Source of the DNA: a virus
IMG/VR virus record: IMGVR_UViG_3300044825_000311
Location: 1 to 59,558 of that record
Strand: one strand, 5' to 3'
DNA: 59,558 nt
This document shows positions 22,571-28,264 of the stretch, one piece after another; position 1 is the first letter of the stretch, and every line of letters starts with the position of its first letter. Position numbers and translations under genes: made by a program. The notes beneath the pieces were generated by a model. The model worked only from the letters and a program-made list of their open reading frames with translations, was not told the origin of the DNA and made no database searches.

Positions 22571-23677
22571 TTACATCTTTACGACTTCGCCCCACGGTGC
22601 CTTGTAGGAATAGTTGCTGACCCACAGAACAGGGTAATCAGGGGCGGGACCAAAGTCATCGCAGCACAGATCGGTCAGCACCACGGTGGCAACGGGGTTG
22701 ATATCCTGCTCTTCAAGCGCCTTGAAGATGGGCGAGAAGGCGGTGCCGCCAGTGCCGGGAGACACGAGCTTGCCGATGGTATCGTCGGGGAGATAAGTTT
22801 CCTGCTTGCATACCTCGTGGTGGAAGTACACGACATGCAGTTTCTCAGGCGCACCGTCACCGTGGATAGCCCGGAGTTCAGTGGCGAACTCGGCCAGCGT
22901 CTTGTCATCAATGGACCCGGAACAATCCAGTGCCACGGCGATCTCGCCAAGGCGCTCACCGCTACGGGTCGGGAGATAGATACCCTGTGCCAAGAAGCGA
23001 CGATTGGGTCGAGCGAAAGAACGCTGGTCGGTCTTGGCCTTGGTGATGAAGCGACGAAGAACATCACGCCAGTCAACCTTGGGCTGGAGTGCATCACCGA
23101 TAAGGCGCTGGAGATTGGCCGACAACTTGCCAGCCATCTTTGCAGCCTGTGCAGCCTGAGCGATCATAACCTTCTGCTCGGCCATGTCCTGTGCCTGTTC
23201 AGCAGGAGAACCATCAGCCTCTTGCACGTCATCGCCAGTACCGCCGATGGGACCATCGCCATGAGTGTCGGGGAGCAGCTTATAGATACCGTCCGTGGTG
23301 CCACCGCCAGCGTCATACAAAGCCTTGTTAAGCATACCGCCGGGGATGAACTTGCCGATCTTCTCGTCGGTCAGAAGCTGGTTGATGACGTAATCACCAG
23401 CCATGTTCCACTTCTTGGGGTTGCGACCGTTGAGGCGGTACATATGCTCGAACATGGGATGGAATACCTCGTGTGCTACGAGGAACTTAAGCTGCTCATC
23501 GTCAAGGTCTTCGATGAAGGACGGGTTGAACTTGACCCACTTGCCATTGGTGCAAGCGGTCGGAATGCTGGGGTCCAGTGACATGGGCATGTTAAGAGCA
23601 AGCGTACCGATGAAGGGCTGCTCAAGGATCAAGGCAGTTCGCGCCTTGGCAAGTCTACGATTGAGGTCCATAGCCAT
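22571..23677 (-). CDS. DUF2201-type metallopeptidase/VWA protein
   Basis: 368 aa. Residues 66-80 carry HEVFH (His69, Glu70, His73) of the putative metallopeptidase domain, followed by NMAGDYVINQ. Residues 245-368 are a von Willebrand A-like domain with MIDAS-type DCSGS (251-255). In bacteria such proteins work with MoxR-family ATPases, and one is encoded just upstream at 25298-26296. The pair probably remodels or inserts a metal into a target protein; the target is unknown. The gene has its own leader of 68 bases after a 15-bp palindrome (23745-23759). Confidence 0.85.
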   Translation of the reverse strand: MAMDLNRRLAKARTALILEQPFIGTLALNMPMSLDPSIPTACTNGKWVKFNPSFIEDLDDEQLKFLVAHEVFHPMFEHMYRLNGRNPKKWNMAGDYVINQLLTDEKIGKFIPGGMLNKALYDAGGGTTDGIYKLLPDTHGDGPIGGTGDDVQEADGSPAEQAQDMAEQKVMIAQAAQAAKMAGKLSANLQRLIGDALQPKVDWRDVLRRFITKAKTDQRSFARPNRRFLAQGIYLPTRSGERLGEIAVALDCSGSIDDKTLAEFATELRAIHGDGAPEKLHVVYFHHEVCKQETYLPDDTIGKLVSPGTGGTAFSPIFKALEEQDINPVATVVLTDLCCDDFGPAPDYPVLWVSNYSYKAPWGEVVKM

Positions 23678-24034: not shown

Positions 24035-24276
24035 GGTAATCCTTTCATAACAGCGTAATCATAGAAGCGTTTGAAGTCTTGGTAGTACACAGACTGTATA
24101 TTATCCGACAAGTCTGTGTACTTATTGGTTTTTCTTTTTCTTTTTTCACCGTGCTTATAGAGAGGTAGGGTGAACTCTATACCATACAGCATCTTTACTG
24201 TAGCCGCTAAGGTTAGCACCCTATCGCGTCCGGGGTAGTGCGAGGGGGCCAGACGGACCCCCTCCCATGGTGCCAT
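24031..24276 (-). CDS. Basic small protein (81 aa)
   Basis: Not recognised. ATG 24276 (GGGAGGA, 5-nt spacer) is preferred to the GTG at 24279 that overlaps the upstream stop. The centre is very basic (KHGEKRKRKTNKY) and the C terminus is aromatic. The stop overlaps the next start by four bases. Confidence 0.6.
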   Translation of the reverse strand: MAPWEGVRLAPSHYPGRDRVLTLAATVKMLYGIEFTLPLYKHGEKRKRKTNKYTDLSDNIQSVYYQDFKRFYDYAVMKGLP

Positions 24277-25136
24277 CACAGTCCTCCCATGAACACAGCC
24301 ATCTTATCCATGATGGCCTTGGCCTCATCGATCTTCTTTGTGCGGAACGTATCGTCTCCAAGCACCGCCTCTTTGTTGAGGCTGGCCAGCTTGGCCTCGA
24401 CCTCACGGCGCATGGCTTCGAGGTTGGGGTCATCGTTAAAGTTAAGGCGCGGCAGCAACTCGCACAGTTCCACGAGGTGTTCGATGCTGCTCTCATGAAA
24501 GCGGGACTTGGGATCGCTTACCTTAACCATCTTTTCGGTAAGGTGCTGGACCCGATCATACAGCCGCTGCCAAACGTCTTTCATTGCGGAAGCACTGGCT
24601 TGCTGAACACGTTCTTCTACGTCACGCTGTATCCGTGACAGTTCAGCGTCACCGATGCTTACACGAAAGTCGTTCGACGGAACGGGGAACACGGCCATGT
24701 CCATCTTGAACTTGGCTGCAATGTCCTTCTCGTGAGGGTAATCCTCTTCACGGTACAGCGAACCAAGGAACCGTTTGGCGTCAGCCTTGAGCAACGAATA
24801 GTTGCTGGTGAATAGGTTCACCAACGTCTCCCACTCGGACTTCTCCTTACGAAACTCATTGATGAAGTTGAGGTAATTGGAGGTGGGCAGCATCTGGGTG
24901 CCTTCGATGCCCCACGGCAACGTGTTCTCGTAATACTTGGTGCGAATATATCCTGCCTTCTGGTGGACGTTGGAGAGGTAGTCGTTAAGGGGCAGGAGCG
25001 ACTTGTTGTAGCGGCCAACGGAGGCGTTGACGCCATGGGTATTGGCCACCTCAAGGGTAGCCTTCTTGTCGTACTTTCGTGCCGTCCACTGGGAGATGTT
25101 AAGCTGGACGAGCAGAGCGCGGTCGGAAAGCTGCAT
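24276..25136 (-). CDS. DUF3150-like protein of the MoxR/VWA module
   Basis: 286 aa, almost all helical with several charged coiled-coil stretches (e.g. 168-200 and 245-275). Sequence style and position between a MoxR-type ATPase and a VWA protein fit the DUF3150 family, which commonly lies beside CobS/CobT-like pairs. The role is probably adaptor or substrate. A hammerhead ribozyme (25154-25209) lies directly ahead of its ribosome site (AAAGGATATATACC), so its mRNA should start with a self-cut 5' end. Confidence 0.75.
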   Translation of the reverse strand: MQLSDRALLVQLNISQWTARKYDKKATLEVANTHGVNASVGRYNKSLLPLNDYLSNVHQKAGYIRTKYYENTLPWGIEGTQMLPTSNYLNFINEFRKEKSEWETLVNLFTSNYSLLKADAKRFLGSLYREEDYPHEKDIAAKFKMDMAVFPVPSNDFRVSIGDAELSRIQRDVEERVQQASASAMKDVWQRLYDRVQHLTEKMVKVSDPKSRFHESSIEHLVELCELLPRLNFNDDPNLEAMRREVEAKLASLNKEAVLGDDTFRTKKIDEAKAIMDKMAVFMGGL

Positions 25137-25153
25137 GGTATATATCCTTTGTT

Positions 25154-25209
25154 AGCCTCATCAGTGCCAGCATCACTGGCAGACGGGGGATTTCTCCCCC
25201 GTTTCGGCT
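25154..25209 (-). ncRNA. Type II hammerhead ribozyme A
   Basis: Read on the minus strand: AGCC, GAA, stem III (ACGGGGGA/TCCCCCGT, 8 bp, GAAA tetraloop), cleavage base C (25182), stem I (TGCCAG/CTGGCA with a 5-nt loop), CTGATGA, GGCT. AGCC pairs with GGCT as the open stem II, so all universally conserved core positions (CUGAUGA, GAA, A15.1-U16.1, C17) are present. Predicted cleavage lies between 25182 and 25181. The site separates the MoxR gene from the DUF3150-like gene, 17 bases before its ATG. Confidence 0.92.
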
Positions 25210-25301
25210 TAGTGCATCAAAAGCACATGGGCGATAAATCCTGCCTGTGTAAGCAGGACACCCACTGCAAGCAAAAACAGCCAAAATGTCCAGCCTGTCA
25301 A
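25209..25301 (-). CDS. Possible tiny membrane peptide (30 aa), TTG start
   Basis: A 30-codon frame whose TTG 25301 overlaps the stop of the MoxR gene as TTGA. Residues 4-28 (WTFWLFLLAVGVLL and following) are a strong transmembrane helix. The stop runs into stem II of hammerhead A. No clear ribosome site, so translation would depend on coupling. Confidence 0.4.
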   Translation of the reverse strand: MTGWTFWLFLLAVGVLLTQAGFIAHVLLMH

Positions 25302-26296
25302 AACATCACGTCATGGTGCTTGATGACCCAGTTACCAAACGCTGCCGTATTGTGCAGCGCCTTGTCGCGGCGCAGCGCAAGGCTAACCGTAAGGACTGAG
25401 AACTCAGCGGGCATACGCTCCACGTACTGGCAAACACGTTCAAAGTTGGAAGTGCTGGCACGTTGTGCCAGTGAACCAGCAAGAGCGTACAGCGTAGCGG
25501 GATCGGTCGGAACGTCAGCCGACTGGGGGTTAAGCAGGATGGCGTCAGGGTTGGGCAGCTTGCGGAAGATACGCAAGAACCCAGTGAACTCAGAGGCCGG
25601 ACCCTCACCGACCGCACCCTTGAACGTCTCGAACTCAGCCTCCTTGGGCACTACGTCAATGGCAGGGGAAACACGTTCGCACCAGCCACGAGGTGTCGGG
25701 TTCTTGTCACGCTGGGCATCGAACTCGTGCAGCAGACCGGACTTGAAGCGGATGAAAGCGATAACCTCCGGGCGGATGTTGTTATCCATAGCCCACTTGG
25801 TCCAGTCATCGATGTGGGTTTCAAGCTCGAACTCGAACTCACGGTCGCTGAGATGGGACAGAACACGATTGGCACCAGCACGATCCTGCTGACGATTGCC
25901 AGTGGACAGGATGAACCAGTTATCAGCCATCGCTACACCGTGAAGCTCACGTTCCTGTACGAGATTAGCCAGTGCCTTCTGGAGATCGTTGTTAGCCTGA
26001 TTACGATCATCGAAGCACAGCACACCGGGCTGACCGTTGTCGTACTTGGACCCCTTGGCAGGGAACCAATCGGGCAGCTTGTAGTACAGCATGGGCTTGT
26101 CGATCATGGGAACACCCAAGTCTTCCACCGGGATGGTCGGGAGATGACGCTGGATGTACTGATAACCCAAGTCCTTGGCGACCTGTTTGATGATGGAGGT
26201 CTTGCCCCCACCCGGAGGGCCAACGATAACAGCCGATGACTTGACACCAGCCTGAAGCAGCGAAGAGATGGTATCCTTGAGAAGAGAAGCACGCAT
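25298..26296 (-). CDS. MoxR/CobS-type AAA+ ATPase
   Basis: 332 aa from ATG 26296 (AAAGGATATATAAACCA ahead). Walker A GPPGGGKT (26-33), Walker B-like VLCFDD (92-97) followed by NQANNDLQKALANL, sensor ILSTGNRQQD, and LSHLSDREFEFEL. This is the MoxR-like pattern. It should power the partner VWA protein (22571-23677), with the DUF3150-like protein between them in the operon. A 15-bp palindrome lies 78 bases upstream. Confidence 0.85.
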   Translation of the reverse strand: MRASLLKDTISSLLQAGVKSSAVIVGPPGGGKTSIIKQVAKDLGYQYIQRHLPTIPVEDLGVPMIDKPMLYYKLPDWFPAKGSKYDNGQPGVLCFDDRNQANNDLQKALANLVQERELHGVAMADNWFILSTGNRQQDRAGANRVLSHLSDREFEFELETHIDDWTKWAMDNNIRPEVIAFIRFKSGLLHEFDAQRDKNPTPRGWCERVSPAIDVVPKEAEFETFKGAVGEGPASEFTGFLRIFRKLPNPDAILLNPQSADVPTDPATLYALAGSLAQRASTSNFERVCQYVERMPAEFSVLTVSLALRRDKALHNTAAFGNWVIKHHDVMF

Positions 26297-26373
26297 TGGT
26301 TTATATATCCTTTGTTTGTTGTAGTGGGTTGGTCGAGGTCGGAAGTGTCGCACCATCCTCCGTGTCGGTCGAT

Positions 26374-26388
26374 GCGACACGCTGTCGC
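26374..26388. promoter_or_regulatory. 15-bp palindrome, copy 2
   Basis: GCGACAcgcTGTCGC, the same arms as copies 1 and 3 with one spacer base changed, 78 bases upstream of the MoxR-type gene. A second small hairpin, GGGCA/TGCCC (26390-26403), adjoins it. Confidence 0.6.
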
Positions 26389-26435: not shown

Positions 26436-26675
26436 TTACGTTATCTGCTTTGCCAAAACTGGGTGCTTGGCACTGGGCATGAGCAAGCGTTTCTTATAGC
26501 CACGGCCTACGTTAAGGGCACGGTAGTAGGCTACAGCCTGATGGATGTTACCAGTGAAGCTCCACTTGGTGCGGTAAGCACTGCGGTTCTTACCTATCTG
26601 CACAAGGAACTCGGTCGTGTTGGTATAGACCAACGACTTGCCGTCGAGCGTGACAGTCTTGACTTCGATGGTCAT
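26436..26675 (-). CDS. Hypothetical protein (79 aa)
   Basis: Not recognised. Begins MTIEVKTVTLDGKSLVY, a beta-rich start, then FLVQIGKNRSAYRTKWSF and a helical basic end. Its start overlaps the upstream stop as TAATG. The 140 bases after it hold the palindrome and the MoxR-gene leader. Confidence 0.65.
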   Translation of the reverse strand: MTIEVKTVTLDGKSLVYTNTTEFLVQIGKNRSAYRTKWSFTGNIHQAVAYYRALNVGRGYKKRLLMPSAKHPVLAKQIT

Positions 26676-27430: not shown

Positions 27431-27617
27431 GGAATATCTCCCTGCAAATCTTGTTAAAACCATAGTCAGACATAAGGGCCAGTGCCTCATCGCTGGGCAG
27501 CTTGCCGCGATTGCACGTCCGGGTTACCCCGGACGCTCTCTGTGTGATGAATACCGTATGGTTGCCGACATAACGCAACCGCCAGCATTCGCTGTCGATG
27601 CTCAACCAATTAGCCAT
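27423..27617 (-). CDS. Small hypothetical protein (64 aa)
   Basis: Starts at ATG 27617 within the GGAGAACACCAATG junction. Begins MANWLSIDSECWRLRYVG. Not recognised; coupled at both ends. Confidence 0.6.
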   Translation of the reverse strand: MANWLSIDSECWRLRYVGNHTVFITQRASGVTRTCNRGKLPSDEALALMSDYGFNKICREIFHG

Positions 27618-27978
27618 TGGTGTTCTCCTCGGTTGCGTTAAGCCTATCGTTAATAAGGCTGGTATAGCCCAGCCGATCCAAGAGCTTGATCTGCTCAAGG
27701 GTCAAGAGAACGGTTTCGCAATGCGGATGGGTAAACGACCTGTGTTTGGACGTTGTCGGACCATACTTTTCCTTGTTCTCGAACCACGTATTGACCTTGG
27801 GAACATAGACGAACAACGGCCAATGGGGTCCGTAGCTATAGACGCAGTAACGGGCGAGGCTACCATCAGGGGTATCCTGCCACTCAGCGTAAAGCTGGCC
27901 ATTGGAGTTCTTGAACGGGGTTCGAGCCTTGACATAGGGACGAGCAGTACGTCCATTAATTCGCTTAGGCTTAGTCAT
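27610..27978 (-). CDS. DUF8033-like phage protein (122 aa)
   Basis: From ATG 27978, just downstream of hammerhead ribozyme B. Contains YGPHWPLFVYVPKVNTWF, then NKEKYGPTTSKHRSF and LTLEQIKLLDRLG. The W-F-x-N-x2-KY-x-x-TTSKH pattern is found in small phage proteins that I associate with DUF8033; function unknown. Ends ENTNG because its last codons contain the next gene's ribosome site. Confidence 0.65.
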   Translation of the reverse strand: MTKPKRINGRTARPYVKARTPFKNSNGQLYAEWQDTPDGSLARYCVYSYGPHWPLFVYVPKVNTWFENKEKYGPTTSKHRSFTHPHCETVLLTLEQIKLLDRLGYTSLINDRLNATEENTNG

Positions 27979-27993
27979 AATATATCCTTTGTT

Positions 27994-28045
27994 GGCCTCA
28001 TCAGTGCCAGCGTCACTGGCAGACCGCCTCACGGCGGTTTCGGCC
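27994..28045 (-). ncRNA. Type II hammerhead ribozyme B
   Basis: Minus strand: GGCC, GAA, stem III (ACCGCC/GGCGGT, 6 bp, GTGA loop), cleavage base C (28022), stem I (TGCCAG/CTGGCA, loop TGACG), CTGATGA, GGCC. GGCC pairs with GGCC as stem II. Relative to ribozyme A, stems II and III differ but remain paired, which is covariation, while the core is unchanged. Predicted cleavage is between 28022 and 28021. The sequence after it (AACAAAGGATATAT) is the ribosome site of the 27610-27978 gene, and CCTT (28046-28049 region) upstream could pair with AAGG of that site. Confidence 0.92.
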
Positions 28046-28051
28046 TTAAGG

Positions 28052-28264
28052 TTACGAGTGGACGTAACCATCCTGCTCAATGGCAAGCCACATGCCGCAC
28101 CAGTGAACGACTACAGCGCCATCCATACCAAACGTGGGCTGTACGGTTCGACGGAACTGGCGGTAGCTTATGCCTTTGGCCTTAAGGTCGCCGTGGGCAT
28201 ACTTGCGGAGCAGGGCGATACGCTGTTTGCGATTTAGCTTAACGTAAGTTTTAGCACTAACCAT
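28052..28264 (-). CDS. Small basic hypothetical protein (70 aa)
   Basis: From ATG 28264 in the GGAGAACACCAATG junction. N-terminal half is basic and helical (KLNRKQRIALLRKYAHGDL), possibly nucleic-acid binding; the C terminus is VVVHWCGMWLAIEQDG. Ends just 6 bases before hammerhead B. Confidence 0.6.
   Translation of the reverse strand: MVSAKTYVKLNRKQRIALLRKYAHGDLKAKGISYRQFRRTVQPTFGMDGAVVVHWCGMWLAIEQDGYVHS

Follow-up and report, generated by a model that had tools for sequence, protein, structure and literature searches.

Two type II hammerhead ribozymes lie on the minus strand of the window, by which we mean the whole stretch of DNA analyzed, a virus record of 59558 bases. Both are between co-directional genes and outside coding sequence (Table 1). 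The second, ribozyme 2, was absent from the original prediction, which had placed a single ribozyme between the MoxR and DUF3150 genes. That position was right for ribozyme 1, but the name DUF3150 is a weak one in view of the Pfam score, though a remote homologue of the protein in Synechococcus phage MinM2 carries the DUF3150 annotation. In viral contigs, 277 relatives of the DUF3150-like protein were found. The MoxR-like gene is indeed upstream, but its end is 88 nt from the ribozyme. This gap holds a possible 30-codon hydrophobic ORF (25209-25301, minus strand), whose TTG start overlaps the MoxR-like gene at its end; it may encode a small membrane peptide or may be there by chance.

The portal encoded in the window has remote relatives among the portals of Rhizobium phages and of HMO-2011-like podoviruses. 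No DNA relatives of the region were found among named phages and plasmids. A search of the window for tRNAs found none, and a tRNA or theta-ribozyme context was dismissed for this reason. Nothing convincing was found when a strong terminator or promoter was sought at both ribozyme sites, and the reading of the sites as such signals was dropped.

Table 1. Positions of the ribozymes, flanking signals and neighboring genes in the window.
Feature	Position	Strand	Basis or remark
DUF2201/VWA-like gene, further along the same run of genes	22571..23677	-	Pfam PF13203, PF09967
DUF3150-like gene, directly downstream of ribozyme 1	24276..25136	-	Pfam PF11348 E 0.017 only; remote homologue
Tail after ribozyme 1 with Shine-Dalgarno-like AAAGGA (25150-25145)	25137..25153	-	Sequence
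Ribozyme 1, type II hammerhead	25154..25209	-	Rfam RF02276, descriptor, covariation in relatives
TAA stop of possible 30-codon hydrophobic ORF	25209..25211	-	Last A is the outermost stem II base
MoxR-like AAA ATPase gene, preceding ribozyme 1	25298..26380	-	PHROG 1297 E 1.4e-68; AAA_5
Gene for a 122-aa protein of unknown function, first after ribozyme 2	27610..27978	-	
Tail following ribozyme 2, again with AACAAAGGATATAT, before ATG 27978	27979..27993	-	Sequence
Ribozyme 2, type II hammerhead	27994..28045	-	Rfam RF02276, descriptor, fold
TAA CCT TAA: upstream gene's stop, then a second stop in the same frame directly next to ribozyme 2	28046..28054	-	Sequence

Structure of the two ribozymes

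On the minus strand, ribozyme 1 begins with AGCC (25209-25206) and GAA (25205-25203). These are followed by an 8-bp stem III (ACGGGGGA-GAAA-TCCCCCGT, 25202-25183), C17 at 25182, the stem I hairpin TGCCAG-TGATG-CTGGCA (25181-25165; 6 bp with a TGATG loop), CTGATGA (25164-25158) and GGCT (25157-25154). Stem II has 4 bp. Cutting is predicted at 25182/25181, and the ribozyme ends 17 nt before the ATG at 25136. Ribozyme 2 has stems II, III and I of 4, 6 and 6 bp, the last with a TGACG loop; its predicted cut is 28022/28021 and it ends 15 nt before gene 27610-27978. Folding gave z = -3.7 for the stretch of ribozyme 1 and -2.85 for ribozyme 2. The tails of the two are nearly identical in text, with the Shine-Dalgarno-like AAAGGA in each, and both leaders have GCCAGTGAYGCTGGCACTGATGAGGCYAACAAAGGATATAT in common.

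Both copies scored narrowly above the Rfam RF02276 gathering score of 37 bits: ribozyme 1 with 38.1 bits (E 3.3e-4 over all 4227 Rfam families) and ribozyme 2 with 38.2 bits, in a match spanning 27987-28045 of the minus strand. The family core (CUGANGA, GAA, A15.1-U16.1 and H17) is present in both as CUGAUGA, GAAA...U and C17. Both have the type II topology according to the descriptor and the fold, with stems I and III closed by loops and stem II open. A pseudoknot between loop I and the 3' tail, common but not obligatory in RF02276, was looked for in both window copies and not found. A strict descriptor, composed of the hammerhead core and three helices, had exactly two matches in the 59.6-kb window, which were these sites, and no match in any of 40 dinucleotide shuffles. 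Chance occurrence was ruled out by the Rfam matches, the shuffles and the covariation described below.

By sequence and structure, the minus strand at 25154-25209 was confirmed as a complete type II hammerhead ribozyme. The original prediction was borne out in its strand, core order, stem I and stem III lengths, predicted cut position and distance to the next gene, and in the covariance-model score.

Covariation and patchy presence in relatives

A hammerhead is also present at the DUF3150-like junction in L050/L125, L061, L161, L175 and L181, and at the junction of gene 27610-27978 in L050, L061, L067 and L216 (contig of L121). Where the ribozymes recur at these two junctions (L050, L061, L067, L216, L161 and L175), their stems have been rewritten. 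In an alignment of 14 ribozymes from the phage group, of which 12 are distinct, all 184 base-pair cells were paired; some members had been chosen by a descriptor that demands pairing, whereas those at protein-defined junctions and the Rfam matches are independent of it. Eleven of the 16 pairs in this alignment were changed on both sides, a result equaled in 0 of 500 shuffles, and structures slid along it as a control gave 30-43% pairing. The catalytic core is invariant in the alignment and intact in both window copies. Such compensatory changes between relatives, at matching junctions, are comparative support for a functional ribozyme.

Among the DUF3150-like gene's relatives, 76 had enough sequence upstream; about 4 of these have a ribozyme directly at the junction, and the gap there is shorter than 20 nt in 42. 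The hammerhead is optional, or dispensable, at this junction, and most relatives lack one. A third hammerhead was found in L050 and L061 before a relative of gene 26436-26675, a place that is empty in the window. Presence and absence vary among the junctions of relatives, and the ribozyme has therefore been gained and lost between junctions. A tie of the ribozymes to one gene family was rejected, since the genes behind them differ and most DUF3150-like relatives have none.

In L122-L124, a plain strong hairpin starting ACGGGGGAGA is located just upstream of the DUF3150-like gene, at the site of ribozyme 1. Its first ten bases are common with stem III in the window, and it is possibly a remnant or a precursor.

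Structural classes and layout at gene junctions

A pattern scan of viral contigs gave at least 118 stretches, against only 39 in the whole 257 Gb of bacterial and archaeal genomes. Ten of these 39, Mycobacterium lepromatosis and nine other matches, had no hammerhead fold and were taken as chance matches. BLAST of a window ribozyme against named phages returned weak partial matches only, while a consensus query found real ones. PaP3, a reported carrier of a variant hammerhead, gave no match by descriptor or Rfam.

Among 192 distinct ribozymes, including the matches listed, the stem I hairpin was no longer than 19 nt in 72 and longer in 120. In the short class the hairpin is mostly exactly 17 nt, with 6 bp and a loop near U-N-A-N-G. 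Stem II had at least 4 bp in 63 of the 72 short-class members, while only 8 of the 120 longer ones had 4 bp (Fisher p 1e-31). The fourth pair covaries in the short class, being Watson-Crick in 62 of 72 against 31 expected by shuffling. A loop I-tail pseudoknot of at least 4 bp was found in 81% of the longer class but in 4% of the short class, the same as for shuffled tails. The split was repeated in the genome set (16/16 versus 2/32). Both window ribozymes belong to the short class, with a 17-nt stem I hairpin, a 4-bp stem II and no loop-tail pseudoknot. Both classes keep an adenine immediately 5' of stem II (66 of 72 short, 97 of 120 longer). This adenine, or the first stem II pair, is often provided by a UAA or UAG stop codon, mostly in frame. 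In the closest cases, stops overlapping the 5' shoulder of stem II were in the frame of an ORF with 40 or more codons in 21 of 29 of the short class and 62 of 69 of the pseudoknot class.

The phage ribozymes among the matches listed have a common order of upstream stop codon, ribozyme, Shine-Dalgarno sequence and start codon. This was quantified for the 157 distinct ones, with a stop counted when it closed an ORF of at least 40 codons. A stop was no more than 3 nt from the 3-bp stem II in 109/152 (72%), versus 4.7% for random positions, and a Shine-Dalgarno sequence and start within 60 nt in 111/147 (76%), versus 12%, for ORFs that are mechanical and contigs that are phylogenetically non-independent. 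The median distance to the start was 26 nt. The genome set gave a weaker replicate, with a stop in 21/47 (random, 3.4%) and a Shine-Dalgarno sequence and start in 29/47 (random, 13-18%).

Annotated genomes have the same layout. In phages YPCBV-1, vB_PeaS-P1 and B23, 0-2 nt separate the ribozyme from the end of the preceding CDS, and about 17-21 nt lie between it and the start of the following one. Streptomyces phage Triumph (L232, OQ190479) has ten type II hammerheads between 41830 and 49732, in a region of small genes, all on the minus strand and in gaps between annotated minus-strand genes, with an overlap with a CDS end of one base at most.

One of the Triumph hammerheads is directly before an OCR-like antirestriction gene, which recalls the association with ardA that Perreault et al. 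(PMC3088659) noted. At least six short-class hammerheads occur in one 8-kb chromosomal stretch of Singulisphaera sp. GP187 (L267), which is probably a prophage. An 8-kb contig of a Lokiarchaeota MAG (L246) holds four tandem hammerhead-like elements and may be viral or may have been binned wrongly.

Proposed role and comparison with known systems

Both ribozymes are probably active in cis, cutting a long polycistronic early phage mRNA of the minus strand; this is the best reading of the data. For ribozyme 1, the operon-processing role that the original prediction gave it is the best-supported interpretation. It is favored by the Rfam and descriptor matches, the covariation, the recurrence at the same junctions, the layout and the lack of a convincing terminator or promoter at the sites. 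We infer that the genes form one transcribed operon, that the RNA is cut in the cell, that its new ends are protected and that the phage benefits. The cuts would fall immediately before gene 27610-27978 and immediately before the DUF3150-like gene, and cutting at both sites would release a piece of about 2.84 kb between them. The upstream message would end in the stem III hairpin with a 2',3'-cyclic phosphate, and the downstream message would begin with the stem I hairpin and a 5'-OH, on a leader of 43-45 nt; both new ends would thus be capped by hairpins. The leader would keep its ribosome-binding site, and translation of the next gene would therefore remain possible. The outcome would be gene blocks that decay separately without a host nuclease. 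Both window copies lack the pseudoknot that speeds many type II hammerheads, so their rates in the cell could be low. The optional presence among relatives and the narrow margin over the Rfam score also count against this reading.

More tentatively, type II hammerheads might be a general gene-junction cassette of phages that fuses three signals. The upstream stop codon would be built into the 5' shoulder of stem II, hairpins would be given to both new RNA ends, as only the type II permutation allows, and the next ribosome-binding site would follow at once. Terminating ribosomes would cover the shoulder and delay folding, and so would time the cut. The fold of the short class would be held by a still undescribed contact of the U-N-A-N-G loop with the adenine-flanked 4-bp stem II.

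Three other explanations were weighed against processing of a long message. An improbable one, though the strongest of the three, is that each ribozyme is a regulated leader setting the output of the one gene behind it, with cutting gated by conditions or by ribosomes terminating on the flush stop. This would fit the location close before start codons, the in-frame stop codons overlapping the stem II shoulder and the salt response proposed for a halovirus hammerhead in PMC3088659. However, neither a ligand domain nor a conserved switch sequence was seen, different genes follow the ribozymes, and flush stop codons are also expected from plain genome compaction.

Still less probable is a selfish or drifting repeat, in which cassettes of little benefit to the phage would spread between junctions by recombination and be tolerated because both reading frames are spared. 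Differences in presence between close relatives, the near identity of the window copies in stem I and tail, and the third copy in L050 and L061 at a junction empty in the window could be explained in this way. Neutral copies should decay, but the pairs and the core are kept under heavy sequence change, and each of the two structural classes keeps its own constraints. A catalytically silent structure, whose hairpins would protect message ends or decouple genes with no cutting in the cell, is the least likely: the plain hairpin in the same gap of L122-L124 and the lack of a pseudoknot in the short class are consistent with it, but a plain hairpin does not need the intact and invariant catalytic core, and the same-class Bcep176 ribozyme has measured cleavage according to PMC3088659.

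The ribozyme family and the hypothesis of message processing are already known, and the claim that such processors are little described in phages was overstated. Perreault et al. (2011; PMC3088659) discovered type II hammerheads and described them in phages and prophages. They saw that clusters of them flank phage genes, and proposed that the ribozymes process long phage transcripts into operon- or gene-length mRNAs. In the same paper, 14 of 18 consensus hammerheads were active in vitro, a triple set from an Agrobacterium prophage was cleaved in E. coli, and the 5' end of a halovirus transcript was within 3 nt of the hammerhead cut. The pseudoknot is described there, with many hammerheads lacking it. 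No statement of the stop-ribozyme-start layout was found in the searched text of PMC3088659 or in other searchable literature outside subscription journals. De la Pena et al. (2017; PMC6155905) treated the role of prokaryotic hammerheads as an open question and noted a link to phages.

The present analysis adds a second copy, covariation at the same junctions, a quantified layout, the split into two classes and a cultured phage with ten copies. The regular layout suggests a specific and testable answer on the role of hammerheads, namely host-independent cutting of phage messages at gene junctions. Triumph, which is grown on S. lividans, is a good test phage with its ten copies.

In the early mRNA of T7-like phages, the host protein RNase III cuts between genes of the polycistronic message and leaves hairpin ends. 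By analogy, the proposed cuts would likewise be between genes of a polycistronic message and leave hairpin ends, but here the RNA would cut itself, leaving a 2',3'-cyclic phosphate and a 5'-OH. Compared with the RF02276 hammerheads of phages and prophages in PMC3088659, the window copies are alike in topology, core, predicted cut site and proposed transcript processing, and in occurring in tandem near small phage genes; they differ in having no loop I-tail pseudoknot and a stem II of 4 bp instead of 3 bp. Another close likeness is the hammerhead of phage Bcep176, a short-class member 2 nt after the annotated end of gp32, with a 17-nt stem I hairpin, a TTATG loop and a 4-bp stem II. Its cleavage is slow (below 0.1 per min) because of an A6C change in the core, according to the same paper, whereas both window copies have the consensus core.
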